64,000 bases of DNA from Geothrix sp. (GTDB lineage: Bacteria > Acidobacteriota > Holophagae > Holophagales > Holophagaceae): contig NZ_JAHRYQ010000002.1 of NCBI RefSeq assembly GCF_020622065.1, forward strand, positions 431,905-495,904. Reading direction: 5' to 3'. Of the stretch, positions 1,785 to 46,900 are shown piece after piece. The stretch's first letter is position 1. Each line of letters begins with the position of its first letter. The notes below the pieces were generated by a model. It saw only the letters and a program-made list of their open reading frames with translations, ran no database searches and was not told where the DNA came from. Both the position numbers and the translations under genes were made by a program.

Positions 1785-4700
1785 ATGAGCGGAAACGTCG
1801 CCTACGATCCCGAACACCCGACCTTCCTCCAGCGGATCATCCGCTTCTCGGCAGAGAACCGCTGGCTGGTGATGGCCGCCTCGGCAGTGCTGCTGGCCAT
1901 GTCGTTCTGGACCATGCGGAACATTCCCTTGGACGCCCTACCGGACCTCAGCGATACGCAGGTCATCGTTTACAGCAAGTGGGATCGGAGTCCTGACATC
2001 GTCGAGGACCAGGTCACATACCCCATCGTCACGAGCCTCCTGGGGGCTCCCAAAGTGAAGGCCGTCCGAGCCCTATCGGACTTCGGCTTCTCCTATGTCT
2101 ACGTGATCTTCGAGGACGGCACGGACATCTACTGGGCTCGATCGCGCACCTTGGAATACCTCAGCAAGATCACCTCAAGCCTACCTCCCGGTGTGCAGAC
2201 CTCCATTGGGCCAGACGCCACTTCCGTGGGCTGGATCTACCAGTACGCCTTGGTGGATCACAGTGGCAAGCACAGCACGGATGAGCTGCGCTCGCTCCAG
2301 GATTGGTTCCTGCGCTACTCCGTCCAAAGCACACCTGGCGTGGCGGAGGTGGCCACCGTGGGTGGCCAGGCCCGGCAGTTCCAGGTGCAGGTCGACCCCA
2401 ATAAGCTCGCAGCCTACAAGATCCCCATCGAGAGCGTCATCGGGGCGGTGAAGGGCGCCAATGCGGAAGTCGGTGGCCGTCTCGTGGAATACAGCGGCCG
2501 AGAGTATATGGTCCGTGGACGCGGCTACGTGAAGACCACCAAGGATCTTGAACAGGCAGTGCTCAAGGCCGAGAACGGCACCCCCGTCCGCCTGAGCGAA
2601 GTGGCCACCGTGAGCCTCGGCCCTGAAATGCGGCGTGGCATTACAGATCTGGACGGACACGGCGACGTAGTGGGCGGCATCGTGGTCATGCGTCAGGGCG
2701 AGAATGCCCTGAATGTCATCGAGCGGGTGAAAACGAAGCTGGGGGAACTGAAAAAGGGCCTCCCGGAAGGGGTGGAGATCGTTCCGGTCTATGACCGTTC
2801 CGAGCTGATCAACCACGCCATCAAGACCGTGAAGCACAAGCTCATCGAGGAGATGATCGTCGTCTCGATCATCATCCTCATCTTCCTATGGCATGTGCCC
2901 TCGGCCCTGGTGCCCATCATCACCATTCCAGTGAGCGTAGCGCTGGCCTTCATTCCGATGTACGCCATTGGCCAGAACGCCAATCTGATGAGCCTCGCCG
3001 GCATCGCCATCTCCATTGGCGTACTGGTGGACGGCGCCATCGTGGAGGTGGAGAACGCTTACAAGAAGATCGAGAAATGGATCGAGGCCGGAAAACCAGG
3101 GAGCTTCTACGAGGTCCGACTCGCCGCCCTCATGGAAGTGGGGCCCTCAGTGTTCTTCTCGCTCCTGGTGGTGGCAGTGAGCTTCATGCCCATCTTCACC
3201 TTGCTGGACCAGGAAGGCCGGCTCTTCAAGCCGCTGGCCTACTCCAAGAACCTGGCCATGGCCATCGCGGCCCTCCTGGCCCTGACGCTGGATCCGGCCA
3301 TGCGCATGATGTTCGCCCGGGTGGAGCCCTTCCGGTTCAAGCCCAAGTGGCTGGCCTGGACCTTTACTCAGGTGGCCGTCGGCAAGTACTACGCCGAGGA
3401 GAAGCACCCCATTAGCGTATTCCTGCATCGGATCTACGAGGGACCCTGCCGCTTCGTGGTGAAACACGCCAAGGCAACCATCGCGGTGGCGGTGCTGCTG
3501 GTGCTGGGCACCATCCCTGCCTTCATGGGCCTGGGCAGCGAGTTCATGCCCCCCCTCAACGAAGGCACGCTGCTCTATATGCCTTCCACCCTGCCGGGCC
3601 TGAGCCAGACCGAGGCCCAGCGCATTCTCCAGGTGCAGGACCGCCTGATCCGCACCGTGCCCGAGGTGGAGCGCGTCTTCGGCAAGGCGGGCCGCGCCGA
3701 CACGGCCACGGACCCGGCGCCCTTTTCCATGATGGAGACAGTCATCATCCTGAAGCCCGAAGAGCAGTGGCGAGAGAAACCCCGCTGGTTCAGCTCTTGG
3801 GCACCGAATTTCATGAAAGCCGTCCTTCGACCCATCTGGCGGGACCGGATCACCCAGGAAGATATCGTTGCGGAGCTCGACCGCGTGGTGAAGCTCCCGG
3901 CTATTCCCAATGCCTGGACCATGCCCATCAAGGCTCGTCTCGACATGCTCAGCACGGGCATCCGCACCCCCGTGGGCCTCAAGATCAACGGCGCTGATCT
4001 GGGGACCATCCAGAAGGTTGCGGTGGACGCAGAGCGAATCCTCGCCGGCGTTCCCGGCACCCGTAGCGCCTTCGCGGAACGCACGGCCCAGGGCTACTTC
4101 CTGGACTTCGTGTTGAAGCGGGACCAGCTGGCCCGTTACGGGCTCAGCGTGGAGCAGGCCAACATGCTGGTGATGACTGCCATCGGCGGCGACAACCAGA
4201 GCACTGTCTACGACGGTCGGGCCAGGTACCCTGTGAATGTTCGCTATGCCCGCGACTACCGGGAAAGCCCCGACGCCCTGAAACGCGTGCTTATCCCCGC
4301 GCCCAACGGCGCCATGATCCCTATGGAAGAAATTGCTGAACTGAAGTGGGCCAATGGGCCCGCCATGATCCGCGACGAAAACGGCCAGATGAACGGCTAT
4401 GTGCTGGTGGACTTTGACACTTCGAAGTTCGATGTGGGCACCTATGTTCAGCACGCCAAGGCGGCCGTGGAGAAGGACCTCAAGCTACCCGCCGGCTACA
4501 GCCTCACCTGGTCGGGTCAGTACGAGAACATGATCCGCGTGAAGGAACGGCTGAAGGTCATCCTGCCCATTACTCTGGTGCTCATCTTCGGCCTGCTCTA
4601 CGCCAACACCAAGAGCGCCTTCAAGGCCTCCGTGGTGATGCTGGCGGTACCCTTCAGCGCCATCGGCGCCTTCTGGCTGCTCTGGGCCCTGGGCTACAAC

Positions 4701-33322: not shown

Positions 33323-34594
33323 TTACTTTGAGGGAATGAGGGAATCCCAGGGGATGATGTAGCTCGTGCTGCGGCCAGCACCCACCACGATAAGACATCC
33401 ACTGCTTGCGAGATCTGCGAGGTCGCGGGAGGCGGTGATGGGGCTGCAGCTTGTCAGCGCTGCGAATTTCCGGGTAGTCATACCACCCTCAAAGCCGCCG
33501 GGCCCGGCATCCAGGAGTCGGTTGAGGGCCTTCCGCTGGCGCTCGTTGATCTGCTTGTCGTTGTAACGGGCCCAGAAGGTTCCCTTGGCGAGTGAGCGCT
33601 GGATGATCTGCTCGGGCTGCGTGCAGGCCTCCGCTACCTGGGTGAGGAACCATTGCAGCCATGGAGTAATGTCCAGCCCCTGGCGGAACGCCTGGGCGGA
33701 TTCCAAGGCCGCGTAGTAGTCCGGACGAACTTGGAGAATCCGGCTAGACATGCGGACGATTGGATCGCTGTCGTGAGCTTGTGAGAGGGCCAGGTCTGTG
33801 AGTGCCCTCGTGATGCGGCCGTTGCCATCGTCAAAGGGATGGATGGTGACGAACCAGAGGTGAGCCACGCCAGCACGCACCAATCCATCCGTGGATGAAC
33901 TCGAGTTGAACCACTCTAGGAAGCGGTCAAGCTCCGGTTCCAGTTGAGCACGGGGCACCGCCATGAAATGGACAATGGACTCCTCCTCCGACACGCGGGT
34001 CTCTACATGGACCAGTCCCGGGCGGAGCATCCCGATGGCAATGTCAGGGCGACTCTTAGGGAAGAGCGCTCGATGCCAGCGGCAGAGACGATCCAGTGAG
34101 AGCGGGGTGCTTGGGTTCTGCATGGCATCCGAAAGGACTGCACCCACCCCTTCCGCCTTGCGATCGAATGGAGCGTTGCTGTCCACCGGAAGCCCGAGGT
34201 GGCGGGCGACGGAGGCAGCCATGGAGGCAGGATTGATGTGCTCTCCTTCGATGGCGCTGGTGCTCACCCCCTCCTGGGTGAGGACTTCAGCCAGCACTTC
34301 CTGAAAGGCTTTGGGGGAGAGAACACGGCCTGCCATCTGGAGGCGCCCCAGGGCCTGGTGTGCTGTTCCAAGCGGCCCCACCAGCTGATCCCACTGCCAG
34401 GTAAAAGCAGGCCAGTCTGCGTGCTGCCAAATCCAGCGATCCTGAATCTGTTCCTTGGGGATAAGAATGCCGGAGGCGCGACAGAGGACCTTCGGCGATG
34501 GGGAATCCAAGAGATTTTGGTCCAGGCCCTCCCCTGAGTGGTGGACAGCTACGGGCTTTGAAGGTGAAAGGCGCGTGCGCTTCACGGTAATCAC
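33323..34594 (-). CDS. Fic-domain protein (AMPylase-type) with C-terminal wHTH
   Basis: This 423-aa protein has an N-terminal DUF4172-like region carrying an inhibitory motif TSAIEG (T112, E116, G117), so autoinhibited. The Fic motif HPFDDGNGRITR (H252-R263) has every catalytic residue. A C-terminal winged helix (MTTRKFAALTSCSPITASRDLADL) may bind DNA. It would transfer AMP or another nucleotide to a protein. The start is GTG 34594 (minus strand); GTG 34585 is an alternative. Two large palindromes just upstream suggest self-control. Confidence 0.88.
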   Translation of the reverse strand: MITVKRTRLSPSKPVAVHHSGEGLDQNLLDSPSPKVLCRASGILIPKEQIQDRWIWQHADWPAFTWQWDQLVGPLGTAHQALGRLQMAGRVLSPKAFQEVLAEVLTQEGVSTSAIEGEHINPASMAASVARHLGLPVDSNAPFDRKAEGVGAVLSDAMQNPSTPLSLDRLCRWHRALFPKSRPDIAIGMLRPGLVHVETRVSEEESIVHFMAVPRAQLEPELDRFLEWFNSSSSTDGLVRAGVAHLWFVTIHPFDDGNGRITRALTDLALSQAHDSDPIVRMSSRILQVRPDYYAALESAQAFRQGLDITPWLQWFLTQVAEACTQPEQIIQRSLAKGTFWARYNDKQINERQRKALNRLLDAGPGGFEGGMTTRKFAALTSCSPITASRDLADLASSGCLIVVGAGRSTSYIIPWDSLIPSK

Positions 34595-36640: not shown

Positions 36641-38638
36641 TCAACGGGAGAAGCCCTTTGGTCCAGCAGGAGGCTGGCGTGGCTGATTCTCGATGGAATC
36701 ACGCACACGGTTGTCTTCCAGTTCCGGTTCAAGACTGCTGGCCCGGCGCCAACGATCGCCGAAGGGTGCTCGGCTTTTGGCCCGATCTTCTCTCTCAATG
36801 TCTGCGTGGGGGTCGCCAATTTTTTGGGCCAGAGCCTCTGACAACTCGACCAGTCTTTTCCACCCACTGCGAACCAGGCTCAGTCGGTTATCCAACCATC
36901 CAGCAAACCCCTGCTCCTGAGGCAAAGGATCACTATTTTCATGTAGGTTATAGGCTTCGCGAATCGCATCATCGGCGGCCCAATAGGCCTCACCCCGATC
37001 CTCGTGACTTCCATGGGCCAGACTCGTCTCAGCCAACCTCTCGACCCGAGCAGGTAGTTCATCTGGAAGGCATGGGGTGAGACGCATGGACCATGAGTCA
37101 TCGTTAGCATGTATCAGAGACTTTTCAGGCTCGGGAGAGAGCTTCAGCCGTGTACGAAGGGTGAACCATCTCGTTAGCTTTGGCAGATATACAAGGGCTA
37201 AGGCTCGCAAGGATCTGGAGGCCAAAGGCGGTAGAGACACTGGTGATATAGAGCCCCCCAACCCCAGAGCCTGGCTTGCTTCGGATGCAATGGATCGCTG
37301 TCTCCTAACAACGTGATGGTCGAAAGAGGAAGTGGATGCATCCCGTCCAGGTCCACCATGTAGGCCGGGATTAGGGCCATCGGGTTCTCCAGGTATGTGA
37401 GTAACGCTTCCGGAACTGCCTCGATCAAGATGGGCCCCATCCGAGTTCCCAACACAAAGATCCGGCGTTCGTCCAGGTATGGCAGCGGCCTCGGCACTCC
37501 CGGGAACTCCAAGCCTTTGGGCATTAGGCCAGGCAGATGAACCCATTTGGGGATCTTCCCGTGGGCCTCGCCAGTCTCCCAGATCTTCCTCCTTGCCTCG
37601 CGCATTAAATCCGCGACCGTGCCCTTCCAGGTTTCCCACGCCGGGAGATGGTTCCATCTCCCTGGAGGAGGGAGCCCCAGCCACTCTTCCTCCCAGCTCG
37701 GGACTTGGCTCGGTGATTCGAGTCGCTCGAGACGACCATGGGGCGATTGAATTTCCAGCGCCTTCATCCTTGATTCTCCGTATGTGCTGATTGGCCCGAT
37801 CAAGGGCGGTATCCGGACTGATCGCTGTCAGATCAAGGGCCGGGTCATATTTAAGAACCTTCGCGAGGTTGGCAAAGCCGTACGGTTTGCCGAGGTCTGA
37901 ACCCTTCATGAGTTCTCCTTCAAATTCGAATGTAATACCTGTGATGCGTGCGCCCCGGATGTTTAGAGAGGCACTGCCGCCACGTGCTCGAAATTCCTCT
38001 AAGAATCGAGGGAAAGGACGAACGCCCCAACATTCGTTTGCGGCTTCAATGGATTGGTCCACAACCAACCGAATCTTCTGTTTGATTGTCGGTAGTCCGG
38101 TCCGTTCGGCGAGGGCACGTTCCTTCCCGCGGGGACGTGTTGAGTTCAAGCGTTCCTTCTGGTGGATTCGGCCCGACCGGGTGGGACTGGCCACGGGCTC
38201 CAATCCGAATTGTTCTTCGAGAACCCTTAATGCACCTTCGATCTTGCGGAAATCCCGTAGGACTTCCCTCGCGAGGGATCCGTCGGCACGAATGCGACTG
38301 GCGACGATATGGATATGCTCGTGGGGCTGATCATGGTGTTGGATCACACAATAGCTATCCCACCCCATTTCCTGAACAACTCGCTGAGCCACTAGCAACC
38401 ACTCTTCCATCGAAAGATGCTCGCCCGGTCGAAGCGAGATCGAGAGGTGGCGGACAGGCTTTTGGATGGCCCTACGGAGTCTTGATATGGCTTCCAGCTC
38501 TCGCCGTAGGTCGGCAATTGACTCGCCAGCCAACGTGCCACCAAGAAGTGTGGCTCGTTCCATCCCGGAGGCTGTTTTTCGGAACAGGTAACTCAGCAGA
38601 GGGCCAAACCCATTACCTTTCGTGAGTTTTCCGATCAT
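36641..38638 (-). CDS. MOBP-type relaxase/mobilization nuclease
   Basis: This 665-aa protein nicks the transfer origin and leads the strand to the recipient. The N-terminal 260 residues form the relaxase domain. The nucleophilic Tyr is likely Y17 (LLSYLFRK), and the metal-binding histidines are in PHEHIH (H106, H108, H110) with VASRIRADG after. Residues about 290-480 are a Gly/Ser/Pro-rich linker, whose DNA also encodes another plausible protein in a different frame (37198-37767). The C-terminal part is helical. Its start overlaps the MobC-like gene by 26 bases. Confidence 0.86.
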   Translation of the reverse strand: MIGKLTKGNGFGPLLSYLFRKTASGMERATLLGGTLAGESIADLRRELEAISRLRRAIQKPVRHLSISLRPGEHLSMEEWLLVAQRVVQEMGWDSYCVIQHHDQPHEHIHIVASRIRADGSLAREVLRDFRKIEGALRVLEEQFGLEPVASPTRSGRIHQKERLNSTRPRGKERALAERTGLPTIKQKIRLVVDQSIEAANECWGVRPFPRFLEEFRARGGSASLNIRGARITGITFEFEGELMKGSDLGKPYGFANLAKVLKYDPALDLTAISPDTALDRANQHIRRIKDEGAGNSIAPWSSRATRITEPSPELGGRVAGAPSSREMEPSPGVGNLEGHGRGFNARGKEEDLGDWRGPREDPQMGSSAWPNAQRLGVPGSAEAAAIPGRTPDLCVGNSDGAHLDRGSSGSVTHIPGEPDGPNPGLHGGPGRDASTSSFDHHVVRRQRSIASEASQALGLGGSISPVSLPPLASRSLRALALVYLPKLTRWFTLRTRLKLSPEPEKSLIHANDDSWSMRLTPCLPDELPARVERLAETSLAHGSHEDRGEAYWAADDAIREAYNLHENSDPLPQEQGFAGWLDNRLSLVRSGWKRLVELSEALAQKIGDPHADIEREDRAKSRAPFGDRWRRASSLEPELEDNRVRDSIENQPRQPPAGPKGFSR
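37198..37767 (-). CDS. possible gene embedded in the relaxase (MobB-like arrangement)
   Basis: An ATG at 37767, with GGAG eight bases upstream, opens a 189-aa frame inside the relaxase gene. The product has a globular, hydrophobic look (ERRIFVLGTRMGPILIEAVPEALLTYL, AYMVDLDGMHPLPLSTITLLG), while the relaxase frame in the same stretch is low-complexity. RSF1010-type mobilization genes carry mobB inside mobA in a similar way. No family match; it could also be a chance open frame. Confidence 0.42.
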   Translation of the reverse strand: MKALEIQSPHGRLERLESPSQVPSWEEEWLGLPPPGRWNHLPAWETWKGTVADLMREARRKIWETGEAHGKIPKWVHLPGLMPKGLEFPGVPRPLPYLDERRIFVLGTRMGPILIEAVPEALLTYLENPMALIPAYMVDLDGMHPLPLSTITLLGDSDPLHPKQARLWGWGALYHQCLYRLWPPDPCEP

Positions 38639-39134: not shown

Positions 39135-39803
39135 CTACGGCTTTCCTCGTAGACGCCGATCACGGCTGCCCCTTGGAAACTCGATCCACATGCTCATATG
39201 TTGGAGGCGACTGAAGAATGGCGCGCCGTATCGCATAATCAGCGCTTCGGCAGTGCAATTGGTCGTGCAGCTGGTGGAACGGTAGTGGTCATACCGAGCC
39301 CGGATTAACCGGTCAATGAATGCAATGCCCCGGTCATATTCTCGCCCCCCACGCTCCTTGATCTCCCCGCCGAGGTCATCCAAGAACAGAAAATCTGCCT
39401 GTGCGAGTCGACGAAAGAGGCGCTCCTGATCAGCAGGATGGAGAGCCATGCTGCGCCACTCGGTGACAAGATCTAGGACACTCCTCCAAATGGCTGGTGA
39501 ATTAGCAGGATCGAATTGGTTCGGAATTCCATATGCGTACTTCTTAAGGAGTTGATGCTTTGCAAGTGCAGCCATAGCGTAGGTTTTACCCACACCTGTT
39601 GTGCCCGCCAACACCACTCCATTGGGTCGAACCTTTGGCGGCGCCTGGAAGGGTATCTGCTCCAAAGTATTTCGGAGAGGTTCTTCAATTTGGCTAATGT
39701 CGGCAGCCAACTCTGCCGGCATTACACCTGCATTTTCTAGAAGCATCCGAATAGAAGATGCATTGCAACGCGGAGCTGTATCGAATGAAAGCTCTTCAGG
39801 CAT
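39135..39803 (-). CDS. DnaC/IstB-type AAA+ helicase loader
   Basis: This 222-aa ATPase has Walker A LAGTTGVGKTYA (about residues 65-76) and Walker B FLFLDDLGG, and later a TTNC polar segment like the sensor of DnaC/IstB proteins. With the DUF1376-like gene three bases away, it would load the host replicative helicase at the element's origin. It is distinct in sequence from the IstB remnant at 20421. Confidence 0.82.
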   Translation of the reverse strand: MPEELSFDTAPRCNASSIRMLLENAGVMPAELAADISQIEEPLRNTLEQIPFQAPPKVRPNGVVLAGTTGVGKTYAMAALAKHQLLKKYAYGIPNQFDPANSPAIWRSVLDLVTEWRSMALHPADQERLFRRLAQADFLFLDDLGGEIKERGGREYDRGIAFIDRLIRARYDHYRSTSCTTNCTAEALIMRYGAPFFSRLQHMSMWIEFPRGSRDRRLRGKP

Positions 39804-42285: not shown

Positions 42286-43689
42286 TTAGGACGACTGTAT
42301 TTTGAGACTTACCACTCGTTCAGAGCCCTCCAGGCCCAGTGCTGGGGCGATCGAGCGGAACCGCGCTGCCGCAGCGTCTGGACAGAGGTGTCCATAGTGT
42401 CTTTCAACCATGCGTGTGTCGCTGTGACCCAGCTGACGTGCGACCAGGATGAGGTCCATCCCTGCGGCGATCCAAGTGGACGCAGCAGTGTGCCGGAGTT
42501 CGTGGAATGTAAGTTTTGCGATCCCGGCAGCCTTGCATGCTACTTCCATGCTTGGTCTTTGATCTCCATGCAGCCAGACCTGCCCACCCTCCCGTGTCCG
42601 TCGTTTTACCTCTCCATCTCGAAGGAACATCGTCTCGTCGGCTCTCCGCCCAGCCGTGACGGCCTCGAAGAACACCGTGCCTTCTTCAGTCAGGAAGATG
42701 TGCCGATCCTTCCCACTCTTGGCTATGTGGCCAGGTATGAAAATGGTTTTCGCTTCCCGGTTGAATTCGGCGACCGTGATCTTGGTGAGTTCGCCGTAAC
42801 GAGCGCCCGTATAGAGGGCACCCTTCGACAGTCGTTGAAAGTCGGGTTGGCATGCCCGGACAAAACGAACCTGATCCTCGATTGCCAAAAAGCGCACACG
42901 TGCCGTGGAGGTGTTTCGGTATGGCTTTACTTCCTGCCAGATCGGATCCCCCCTGTAGGCACCCGACGTGTGTGCGTAGTTGAGAGCAGCTTTCAGGATG
43001 GTAAGGATGCGATTGGCGGTGTCCTTTCGAGCCCGCCTTTCTTTGTCGGTGGATGGAGGAGCTGGGGGTGGAAGGGGTTCAGGGGGCTTACGGGGGTGTT
43101 TGAACTTGCGCGGCTTGGGCCCTAGAACATCCGGAGTGGGAACCTTCTTGGCCCTGACACGACGTGGGGAGGTCGCCAAGACCTCCAGCCATTTCTCAAT
43201 CTTCTTCCGTGTCAGTTTCCCGACTTCAATATCCCCCAAGGCTGGGCGAATGTGTGCTTCCACTTGATAGGTCTGAGTCTGGGTTCCCTTGACACCCCGC
43301 CGTTCGCAGTCCTTTTTATAGTCAGCCAGCGCAGCGGCCACGGTGAACGGTCCTTCGTGAACCGTTCCCCCATCGACCTTTCGGCGGGCCTCTCTCGCCA
43401 CCTCAGCAAACCAGTCCCGAGCCCTGGACTGCGCCTGAGCCCAATTCATGATTCGGATGCCGTCCGCGTCCTCATAGTCATCAGCGGTACCGAGGGCTTT
43501 GGCCCTGCGTTCGCCGGTGGTCTTGTCACGCCACTTTGCCTGCCAGGTACCCGCAGATCGGGACATTGGCCGGTAGTAGCCGATTTGCTCCCCCTCGGCG
43601 AGAGAGGTCCAGTACGGCGCCTTCCGGGGCGCGACCTTCAAACGGTTTGTCCGATTGTCGAGTGTTGCGTCCTTCTTGGCTCGTGCCAT
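42286..43689 (-). CDS. tyrosine-type integrase
   Basis: This 467-aa recombinase has an N-terminal DUF4102/SAM-like arm-binding part and a core-binding segment (VAAALADYKKDCERR). The catalytic residues are in TGARYGELTK (Arg), HELRHTAAS (H-x-x-R), LGHSDTRM (His) and nucleophile Y432 in VERHYGHL. It is full length with all catalytic residues. It is the last gene before the tRNA-like attachment site at 43850-43899, as expected for an integrase using a tRNA 3' end. Confidence 0.93.
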   Translation of the reverse strand: MARAKKDATLDNRTNRLKVAPRKAPYWTSLAEGEQIGYYRPMSRSAGTWQAKWRDKTTGERRAKALGTADDYEDADGIRIMNWAQAQSRARDWFAEVAREARRKVDGGTVHEGPFTVAAALADYKKDCERRGVKGTQTQTYQVEAHIRPALGDIEVGKLTRKKIEKWLEVLATSPRRVRAKKVPTPDVLGPKPRKFKHPRKPPEPLPPPAPPSTDKERRARKDTANRILTILKAALNYAHTSGAYRGDPIWQEVKPYRNTSTARVRFLAIEDQVRFVRACQPDFQRLSKGALYTGARYGELTKITVAEFNREAKTIFIPGHIAKSGKDRHIFLTEEGTVFFEAVTAGRRADETMFLRDGEVKRRTREGGQVWLHGDQRPSMEVACKAAGIAKLTFHELRHTAASTWIAAGMDLILVARQLGHSDTRMVERHYGHLCPDAAAARFRSIAPALGLEGSERVVSLKIQSS

Positions 43690-43849
43690 CAGGCATCTCC
43701 CAGACGAAAGAACGGATCAGAGTTCTGTCTTGCATATATCTTGCACAGATGTTTCGGGACGACGCGGAACAAACCGGGCCAACAAACCCTGTTTTTCATG
43801 TATTTCAAGGCAAAATTGTACCATGAAACACCGCATCAGACTCATCTAT

Positions 43850-43899
43850 CTACCTTGACACGGTAGGGGTCGGCGGTTCGAGACCGCCCGCGCCAACCA
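43850..43899 (+). other. attR: 3' half of a tRNA-Val(GAC)-like gene
   Basis: The bases fold as the 3' half of a tRNA. The anticodon stem is CTACC (43850-43854) with GGTAG (43862-43866) around loop TTGACAC, anticodon GAC (Val). The variable loop is GGGTC. The T arm is GGCGG-TTCGAGA-CCGCC (43872-43888). The acceptor strand is CGCGCCA, then A and CCA (to 43899). The D arm and 5' acceptor strand are missing. A terminator follows directly. It is the core of an integration site at the element's right end. Confidence 0.78.
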
Positions 43900-43902
43900 G
43901 CC

Positions 43903-43927
43903 AAAGGCCGCTTTTGCGGCCTTTTTT
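43903..43927 (+). terminator. Rho-independent terminator of the tRNA
   Basis: AAAGGCCGC-TTTT-GCGGCC followed by six T residues, with stem 43906-43911 with 43916-43921 extended by A-T pairs. It would have ended transcription of the original tRNA gene. Confidence 0.85.
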
Positions 43928-43994
43928 CATGTCCCAAAAATCGGACGGTCCCGGACCACCCGGCAAGTCCGGCGGGCAGGTAGGGGCCCTTTGG

Positions 43995-46900
43995 TCAGAA
44001 CTGGAATCCCGCCGAGATCAGCAGGCTCTTCAGCTGAGTGTCCCGCTCGTTCTGAGTCCGGGGGCGGCCCATGATGCGTTTCCAGTCGGCGGCGTACTCG
44101 AGCTTGAGGGGAAAACCCAGCTTCAGGATCAGGCCTGCGCCCAGCGTGGTGCGGAGGGCCGGGAAGGATGGGCGGATGCTCTTTTGGGGGTCGGTCGGGT
44201 CGGTCTCGGTGGTCAGGCTGCGGTAGACCTGGCCGCTGTCCACGAAGATCTCCGCCCACACGCTCTGCATGCCGAAGAGGGGGAAGCGGTACTCGAGGTT
44301 CATGACCACCAAGGCCTGGCCGCCCAGGGGGATGGGCTGGGCCAGCTCGTGGCCCAGCGAATCCGTCCGCTGGATGTCACCCAGCATGTCCGGTTCCACG
44401 CCGCGGACGGTGAAGGAGCCGCCCCCGAAGAAGCGCTCCGACAGGGGAAGGTCCTTGGCGGATTGGGCCGTGGGGCGCGCGAGCCCCAGGCGGGCGCTGG
44501 CCATGACCACTCCGTTTTCCGCATGGAAGCCCACGGGCCAGTTCCACTGGTGCCGCAGGTCCAACTTCACGAAGCTGCTGTTGGTGGAGGTGCCGAAGAC
44601 CTGGTTGGCCAGTTCCAGCTTGCCGAGGAAGAAGGTGCCCTGGGTGGGATCGTAGGGCCGATCCCGGCGGTCCACCGCCACCTGGAGATACGGGGCGGAG
44701 ATGATGCTCCGGTCGGGCGTCCGCGCGATGAGGACGAGATCCTCCTTGCGGTAGAGCGGATGCCCGTCACTGTCGGTGTTGGCGGCCACCTCCACCCGCT
44801 CGAAGCGGTAGCCCAGCTGCACCACCTGCACCGGACTGATCTTCCACTCCAGGCTCGGCGTGAAACGCCGGCGGCGGGCGAAGAAGGCGGCCCGGGCCTC
44901 CTCGATGTAGGCGCCTTCGACCCGGAACCGCGTCTTCGGCGCCAGCAGCGCATCCAGGGAGCCGGGCAGGAACCAGGGGTCGGTGTAGCCGAGGCTGTAG
45001 CTGTCCACAGACCGCTTGATCTCGCCGGTGGGGAAGGCCCGCCGCAGGAAGGGGCTGTCCAGGGTCTGGTCGCCGGCCCGCAGGCCGGCATCCAGGGTGC
45101 GCCCCATGCCGCCCACATTCAGCCGCTGCGCGTTCAGGCCGAAGTGATAGCCCTGGGTCTTGTCGTAGCCGAAGGATTCCGAGAACACCCAGGGGCTGCG
45201 CTCCTGCAGGCGCACCGCCAGGTCCCCCCGCTGCCAGGGCTGCTGTTCCTGGTCGGGCAGATCCTTCAAGGTGAGCAGATCCACGCGCTGGAACGCGCCC
45301 AGGCCGCCCAGCTGGATCTGGCCCTGATCGAGTTTCGCGGGATCCAGCGGGCTGCCGGGAGCCAGCTCTGTTTCGCGCAGTACGGCCTCCGCGCGGGTGC
45401 GATCGGCGCCCTGGACAACCAGGCGGCGGACGCGGTCCAGGGGCTGGGCCGGCACCTGCACCCGCACCACCGGCTGGGTCTCGTCATCCTCGAAAGCCAG
45501 CCTCACCTGAGGGTTGGCAGCCCCGGCTGAAGCGAGTCGCCGACGGAGGTCGGAGACCACCAGGGCCAGGTCGTTCCGCACCAGGGGCAGCGCAGGCTTG
45601 AACGCCAGCCGGGCTCCGTCGGCGGTCGCTTCCAGGTGCCCCTCGAAGCCCTGGAGATGCCGGCGATCGGAATGGTAGTCCCTCGTACCGCGCACCGGAG
45701 CGGGCTGGTCCGACAGCGCCAACAGCAGGCTCTTGGCCAGCTGATCCCGGGGGAAGGCGGGATCAGCCGGGAGTTCCAGCACCAGCGCATCGAGGAAGCG
45801 GCGCTGGCCCTCGCGGATGATGAGGCGCACATCCACGGAGCCATCCTTGCCGACCTCCACGCGCCGCCGCACCCGCACCTCCGGAAAGCCGCGCTGAAGG
45901 TAGTGGGCGGTGAGGCGATCCTCCAGGGCCTTCATGGCCTCGGTCTTGGCGTGCGGGGGGAGAAGCAGGAAGCGCTTCGGCAGGCGGACGGCCGCCTGCA
46001 GCTCGTCGTCGGAGAGTTCCCGATTCCCTTCAAAGGTGACCCGACCGAGAATCTTGCGGGGTCCGGGCACCACGGTGAAGGTGATCACCACGGCCTCGGG
46101 GCGCTCCAGCGTCCCGGCCGTGACCTCGCGGACATAGGTCACCTGGGCCTCGGGGTGGCCCTGGTCGCGGTAGTAGCCCGTGATCCGCCCGGCGCCTTCG
46201 TCCAGCAGGCTCGGCGAATAGCGTTCGGCGCGGGCCATGGGCACGAATTCCGACAGCCGGGGACGGCCGCCCCACAAGGGACCCAGGAGGCTGAGCCCCT
46301 TCGCCTTCAGCGTGACCTTGGGCCCGGGCTTGATCTCCAGGATCATCACGCCGTCTTCGTTTTCCACCGGCAGCAGACGGACCGAGCCCTCCAGCCGCTT
46401 GTCCTTCACCAGTCGCTGGCGCAGGCGGCGCTGAGCTTCCCGCTGGACGGCGGGGGTCCAGTGGGTCCGCCCCGGCGCGATCCCCGCGATCTTCAGCAGA
46501 GCCTCCCGCGCGTAGGGCGCGGGGTCGCCTTCCAGCCGCACCTCCTGGATGACCCGGGGCGCCCCGAGGCTCAGGATCAGCCGGAGCTTCCGCCCCCCGG
46601 CCTCCAGCGCGGTGCTGACTTTGGCGCGGCGATACCCCGCCTCCCGCAGCCGTTGCTCGGAGTCTCTTTCCAGGGCCTCCAGCCGCTGGGCACCCAGCCG
46701 CTGACCCTTCCGCAGGTCCGCCGGGAGGGTCTTCCGCAGGTCCGCCGGAAGCGGGTCGCCCTCCCAGCGCCACTCGGCGACCGGGACCAGGGGATCAAGG
46801 CGCAGGATGACCTCCCCGCCAGCCCCGAGACTGCCCTCCACGGTGCGGTAGCGATCCACCAGACGCACTGCCGCCAGGGCCCGCTGAAAGCCCTCGGGAT

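Follow-up and report, generated by a model that had tools for sequence, protein, structure and literature searches.

A relaxase gene of Geothrix sp. with a probable small accessory gene nested in its +1 frame

The window analyzed in this study is a stretch of 64,000 nucleotides from Geothrix sp. (contig NZ_JAHRYQ010000002.1, positions 431,905 to 495,904). It contains a gene for a MobA/VirD2-like relaxase, and within that gene lies a second open reading frame (ORF) on the same strand, whose putative product is designated P0001 (Table 1). A NikA/MobC-like gene and an AAA ATPase gene are located upstream of the relaxase. The tyrosine integrase probably belongs to the same element as the relaxase, and the genes seen suggest that this element is probably integrated and mobilizable. 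We did not locate the ends of the element; between 43685-44010 and 19000-42000, there were no exact repeats of at least 14 bases as attachment-site candidates, and a search for tRNA genes in the window was negative. An AT-rich ORF of 389 residues between the integrase and an excisionase-like gene matched nothing in Pfam at E ≤ 0.001 or in PADLOC at E ≤ 0.01, and is possibly cargo of the element. The window also encodes a Fic-domain protein with DUF4172 and a protein-like ORF convergent with the relaxase. Elsewhere in the same genome (G000:C2:399857-400114, our locus L002), there is a second, fragmentary relaxase match within a 127-aa open frame, which perhaps represents the remains of another element.

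Table 1. Features of the relaxase region and other features of the window mentioned in the text.
Feature	Position	Strand	Remarks
Probable nested accessory gene, P0001, 189 aa	37198..37767	-	189 codons; ATG at 37767, stop ending at 37198; +1 frame of relaxase, starting at relaxase codon 291
GGAG, ribosome-binding-site-like motif	37776..37779	-	8 nt 5' of the ATG
Relaxase, MobA/VirD2-like, 665 aa	36641..38638	-	Pfam Relaxase PF03432, E = 1e-20, residues 28-146; codons 1-290, relaxase part; 291-480, putatively overprinted linker; 481-665, C-terminal tail
NikA/MobC-like relaxosome protein, 122 aa	38613..38981	-	Pfam NikA-like, E = 2.2e-13; MobC, E = 1.1e-6
AAA ATPase gene	39135-39803		Resembles DnaC/IstB below curated cut-offs
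Tyrosine integrase	42286..43689	-	Pfam Phage_integrase, E = 3.3e-18
AT-rich ORF, 389 aa	41072-42241	-	Between integrase and excisionase-like gene
Fic-domain protein with DUF4172	33323-34594	-	Best PADLOC model SoFic, E = 3.1e-44
Protein-like ORF, 259 aa	35700-36479	+	No credible Pfam match

A sequence-only reading of this DNA had proposed a gene hidden in the relaxase linker, and the features on which it was based are present: an ORF of 189 codons on the minus strand that has an ATG and a GGAG motif, and a relaxase frame of low complexity across it. Within the overlap (codons 291-480), the relaxase frame has a hydrophobic fraction of 0.18, compared with 0.30 before and 0.25 after it, and a G/P/S/D/R share of 0.54, compared with 0.34 before and 0.40 after.

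The three codon positions of the overlap have GC contents of 0.68/0.63/0.47 when read in the relaxase frame, compared with 0.63/0.47/0.68 when read in that of the ORF. Because five other genes of the region have values of 0.57-0.65/0.41-0.48/0.47-0.71, the ORF frame looks gene-like, whereas the relaxase frame in the overlap does not. The training set of a codon model consisted of 33 further ORFs from the window, picked by length and individually unchecked. The scores of frames 0/+1/+2 were 0.013/-0.212/-0.420 bits per codon for relaxase codons 1-270, -0.272/-0.094/-0.356 for codons 291-480, and -0.045/-0.163/-0.423 for codons 506-665, and the relaxase frame scored best in codons 1-270, 271-290, 481-505, and 506-665. 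A difference as large as the lead of the +1 frame in the overlap (0.178) occurred in 2 of the 849 overlapping windows into which the training ORFs were divided. In windows of 40 codons, the picture is mixed: the +1 frame is clearly ahead at codons 361-440, from which the phase signal mainly comes, and slightly ahead at 281-320, whereas the relaxase frame is ahead at 321-360 and the +2 frame at 441-480. The +1 frame is also favoured in a non-overlapping stretch of the relaxase (codons 201-240).

According to a criterion established for viruses, the older of two overprinted frames keeps the usual codon signature and the newer one departs from it (PMC3744397). This pattern was observed over the whole overlap of the window and was mixed in the 40-codon windows. 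Because the codon signature of the accessory frame is the usual one, this virus-derived criterion would make it the older frame; the low-complexity linker of the relaxase would then be a later product of overprinting. Two nested pairs on plasmids (loci L015 and L016) bear the same mark as the window, with relaxase-frame GC contents of 0.84-0.87/0.63-0.65/0.43-0.48. In contrast, a +1 run of 220 codons without signs of a gene, located in L049, is without that mark (ORF-frame GC, 0.67/0.82/0.79). In L003 and L006, the ORF-frame GC is atypical within the short overlap (0.53/0.62/0.75 and 0.62/0.67/0.67, respectively), whereas the part beyond the relaxase is typical; in these two loci, the overlapped 5' end of the accessory gene may be its younger part.

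The whole +1 open run around the P0001 ORF comprises 209 codons. A +1 run of at least 209 codons appeared in 528 of 20,000 permutations of the relaxase's own synonymous codons, and the run was still open in 748 of 20,000 trials when the overlap alone was redrawn. Because chance openness by length thus amounts to 2.6-3.7% of synonymous recodings, ORF length was dropped as proof of a gene, and, being weakly significant, it leaves the case to rest on coding phase and relatives. In the reverse test, in which the P0001 protein was kept and its codons were permuted, the relaxase frame was open in 31 of 20,000 trials when counted from the ATG and in 40 of 20,000 when counted from the upstream stop, with 5.0-5.2 stops expected. 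When the codons used to recode P0001 were sampled from the remainder of the relaxase, the relaxase frame was open once in 20,000 trials. The reverse test was weaker for two other nested pairs (L008, 720 of 20,000; L040, 167 of 20,000). Because P0001-keeping recodings so rarely leave the relaxase frame open, this frame is held open too if the P0001 protein is real, and both frames in the overlap seem to be maintained.

Relaxase searches gave matches in 10 of 100 related genomes, in 12 of 93 genomes of the class at E ≤ 1e-10, and in 9 of 396 genomes of the phylum at E ≤ 1e-25, with the own genome included in each number. Besides the window, the host family supplied 13 usable relaxase loci that are distinct from one another (L003, L005-L010, L012-L014, L038, L040, and L044). 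The counts leave out L011, which has the same relaxase as L013; the relaxase fragments L002/L045 and L052; L001, L021, and L030, which are the window itself; L022-L026, noise-level P0001 matches that served only as decoys; and L027-L029, L031-L037, L039, L041-L043, and L046, which repeat loci already counted.

All 13 relatives have an ORF in the accessory slot. In 12 of them, it overlaps the relaxase in the +1 frame, and in L005 it is non-overlapping and begins 12 nt after the last relaxase codon. The ORF starts at relaxase codons 256-333 in nine of the overlapping relatives, and the shift is also +1 in L038, L040, and L044. The overlap measures 119-161 nt in eight loci (L003, L006, L007, L009, L012, L013, L038, and L044) and 236-311 nt in L014 and L010, whereas the ORFs of L008 and L040 are fully nested like that of the window. 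In the 11 relatives without full nesting, the ORF runs past the relaxase stop (10 loci) or lies after it (one locus), and there it is therefore not a by-product of the relaxase code. A comparable +1 ORF is absent from L004, which belongs to another family of the class, and from L017, a Crinalium plasmid without a +1 run of 80 codons; L051 has no +1 ORF resembling the group at the end of its relaxase.

A GGAG motif is found 5-18 nt 5' of the start in 13 of 14 loci, the window included, compared with 8 of the 143 remaining out-of-frame ATGs in these relaxase frames. For L010, this count takes the second ATG as the start, which has GGAG and resembles the start of L014; with the first ATG, which is without GGAG, it becomes 12 of 14. 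In the part beyond the relaxase, six pairs of relatives within groups share 32-45% identity, and inside the overlap conservation does not consistently favour either frame. For the window and L008, which are both nested, identity is equal in the two frames (28% in the relaxase frame and 26% in the ORF frame). The claim of an overlapping accessory gene is supported as a claim about a gene, because relatives have an ORF in the same position and frame, usually with a ribosome-binding site. The sequence-only reading had named beforehand a lack of frame conservation in relatives as one observation that would speak against the gene; on checking, the +1 frame was found to be retained. In L003 (rc 3035-3418), L006 (3004-3396), and L044 (rc 741-1340), a small ORF with a CPFC/CPGC/CCAC motif lies 3' of the accessory gene.

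At the protein level, the similarity of P0001 to its counterparts is remote. A blastp comparison with the L003 protein gave 24% identity over 94 aa (E = 3e-4 in a set of 11). With a profile of L003, L005, and L006, the window ORF ranked first among 584 six-frame ORFs of the window (E = 5.1e-4; next, 0.27) and, when other loci were added, first among 1042 (E = 9.1e-4; next, 0.22). A profile of ten relatives, built with the window excluded, also placed it first among 1042 (E = 4.6e-6; next, 0.28), and hhalign aligned it with the L003/L005/L006 group at E = 5.1e-6 over 102 columns. The score with the ten-member profile was 23.2 bits and was reached by none of 2000 shuffles (best shuffle, 7.9; reversed sequence, -2.7); with each of three profiles, none of 2000 P0001 shuffles reached the score and the reversed protein was below zero. 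The matched span is approximately 33 C-terminal residues in the ten-member profile and approximately 88 residues in a four-member profile. Among 11 relative-only profiles, six ranked the window ORF first, and five did not (L003+L005, L005+L006, L007+L009+L012, L010+L014, and L013). The profile of L008 by itself ranked it first, yet with an E-value of only 0.081. The groups L007/L009/L012, L010/L014, and L013 are not demonstrably homologous to L003/L005/L006 (hhalign E = 0.3-0.5), so that the slot may hold more than one family and may predate any one of them.

Wider searches returned little, and such relatives as they yielded are distant. P0001 matched itself and otherwise only noise in 100 genomes (best other E = 0.007), and no plasmid matched at E ≤ 10. 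The L003/L005/L006 profile retrieved its own three members alone at E ≤ 0.01 from 47 genomes of the genus. Neither the relaxase nor the pair alignment A4 found relatives in viral contigs, and the relaxase search of genome contigs found none; A4 gave two loci in genome contigs, L048 (Geothrix sp. SG200) and L047 (uncultured Holophagaceae), which are the same places as L006 and L003. P0001 has no Pfam family at E ≤ 1, the accessory proteins of seven relatives have no credible match in Pfam or NCBIfam (one Pfam match had E = 0.007, below its cut-off), and five accessory proteins, including that of the window, matched nothing in PHROGs at E ≤ 0.1. With mean pLDDT values of 35.7 and 40.4, two AlphaFold2 models were unusable as structural evidence; both of these low-confidence models have two strands followed by a helix, plus a late helix, in the C-terminal region, from which we drew no inference.

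MobB of IncQ plasmids is a membrane protein, and the transport signals of the R1162 relaxase reportedly need it, according to the title of one study. ColE1-type plasmids have the mobilization genes mbeB and mbeD nested in their relaxase gene mbeA. In RSF1010, whose mobB within mobA the sequence-only reading had already named, mobB lies inside mobA/repB in a different frame, and the MobA, MobB, and MobC activities are essential for mobilization (PMC2200642). Like mobB of this IncQ plasmid, the window ORF is inside the relaxase gene, in another frame, and directly after the relaxase part. The likeness to ColE1 is one of gene layout. MbeA is classed as MOBP(HEN) and RSF1010 MobA as MOBQ (PMC12857230).

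We searched plasmids with the relaxase and obtained 363 matching records, all with less than 60% identity; those listed include IncQ2-type and cyanobacterial plasmids, and six loci were read. In L015, L016, L018, and L020 (IncQ-like, Pseudomonas, and cyanobacterial plasmids), a +1 ORF begins at relaxase codon 248-260, comparable to codon 291 in the window, and the codon phase of their relaxase linkers is marked in the same way. L019 is near-identical to L016 and has nearly the same +1 ORF. The relaxase-nested +1 ORFs of L018 (3764-4201, Pseudomonas juntendi) and L020 (3746-4240, Leptolyngbya) are absent from the listed, incomplete annotation. Among phylum relaxases, L049 and L050 (rc about 2915-3361) have a MobB-like nested +1 ORF with a hydrophobic stretch, starting from codons 472-473, and both relaxases contain what reads as a repeated middle domain; a third phylum relaxase, L051, has no such nested ORF.

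Unlike MobB, the window protein has no match to PF17511 (Mobilization_B), and it shows no similarity to a profile of five proteins from the MobB slot. The positive control P0002 (L015, annotated as an IncQ-type MobB) matched PF17511 with E = 3.7e-13, alone among the plasmid proteins tested; for P0004, from the same slot of the IncQ2 plasmid L016, PF17511 was not among the matches listed (25 of 29 families). Because the L016 slot protein likewise shows no such match among those listed, the lack of one does not separate the window protein sharply from MobB. The strong hydrophobic segment near the C-terminus that is characteristic of MobB was not found in the window protein, whose best 19-residue hydropathy in a simple scan is 1.15, compared with 1.89-2.21 in L015, L016, and L018; this contrast is blurred by the L020 ORF (0.33) and the L005 accessory protein (2.01). 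Because profile and hydropathy were negative, even if the contrast is not sharp, we do not claim membership of the MobB family: the window protein resembles MobB by position and frame only.

The window ORF also resembles the accessory genes of Geothrix/Holophagaceae loci L003, L005, L006, L008, and L044, which occupy the same slot with a ribosome-binding site and, except for the non-overlapping L005, in the +1 frame. The profiles of L003, L005, L006, and L008 match it, and it shares with this relaxase-accessory group profile similarity, a +1 start after the relaxase part, and a ribosome-binding site. The window, L008, and L040 differ by full nesting from L003, L006, and L044, with their overlaps of 119-161 nt, and from L005, which has none. 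Among the papers listed in searches of open-licence literature on relaxases and mobilizable elements of Geothrix/Acidobacteriota and on mobA/mobB overlap, none was seen to describe this accessory family.

Based on the coding signature in the +1 frame, the presence of a slot ORF in all 13 relatives, and the match to profiles made from relatives alone, the P0001 ORF is probably the gene of a separate small protein nested in the relaxase gene. We assign a probability of roughly 0.78 to the whole reading, namely, that a real +1 gene derived from the accessory gene of sister elements is nested in the relaxase gene and that the shared DNA codes for two proteins. The ancestor would have been an accessory gene located after the relaxase gene, or slightly overlapping it, as in sister elements. 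The relaxase frame would then have been extended through the accessory gene, probably by loss of the old relaxase stop. Loss of a stop is one known route to gene overlap (PMC2268670). The overlap would now encode the accessory protein in the older frame, and the low-complexity linker and tail of the relaxase in the newer frame, with translation of the former presumably initiated internally on the relaxase mRNA at the ATG behind GGAG. A relaxosome or transfer accessory role, as that of MobB for IncQ plasmids, is the most likely one, judging from position and co-occurrence and not from sequence; the product would most likely work alongside the relaxase at the origin of transfer, or else hand the relaxase-DNA complex to the secretion system of a helper.

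A reading in which the relaxase alone is translated, and its linker codons happen to avoid stops in the +1 frame, agrees with the 2.6-3.7% of synonymous recodings that are equally open, with the lack of a family-library match or close homologue for P0001, and with the subgroup profiles that miss it. We nevertheless consider it quite improbable, because the coding signature over the whole overlap is in the +1 frame and not in the relaxase frame, the same-slot ORF of relatives runs past the relaxase stop, and the profile match ranks first among 1042 with E = 4.6e-6. It is likewise unlikely, though to a lesser degree, that the accessory frame alone is functional, with the relaxase ending at approximately codon 290 and the open frame beyond it either accidental or, at codons 506-665, a separate gene in the same frame. 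The unusual composition and codon phase of the linker would fit this case, as would the eight relatives in which the relaxase stops 119-161 nt into the accessory gene and the relaxase tail, which found no match among 852 ORFs of the loci (best E = 0.32). However, recodings that keep P0001 left the relaxase frame open in only 31 of 20,000 trials despite 5.2 expected stops, and in one of 20,000 with relaxase codons, and L008 and L040 are nested likewise, albeit with weaker figures (720 and 167 of 20,000).

Because the P0001 ORF comes after the relaxase part and is shifted by +1 from it, a ribosomal frameshift would fuse the two, producing an alternative C-terminus of the relaxase and no separate protein. 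We regard this as very improbable: P0001 has its own ATG and GGAG, as most relatives do, and the accessory gene of L005 starts after the relaxase stop.

Under the preferred reading of a nested accessory gene, the loci have a wider bearing. There is, in our estimate, an even chance that one family provides a natural series of this gene pair, in which the two genes are adjacent in L005, overlap briefly in L003, L006, and L044, and are completely nested in the window, L008, and L040. Such a series would show the origin of mobA/mobB-type nesting and would involve an otherwise undescribed accessory family in the MobB slot. If this is true, loss of its stop lets the relaxase frame run on through the accessory gene, by which the relaxase acquires a linker and an additional C-terminal tail. 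Because the overlap is seen at several stages in one family, the direction of overprinting becomes readable and testable. Annotation usually omits long overlaps on the same strand. The present results suggest that the mobB slot in relaxase genes often holds proteins unnamed by Pfam, NCBIfam, and PHROGs, and mobilization accessory genes are therefore probably undercounted.
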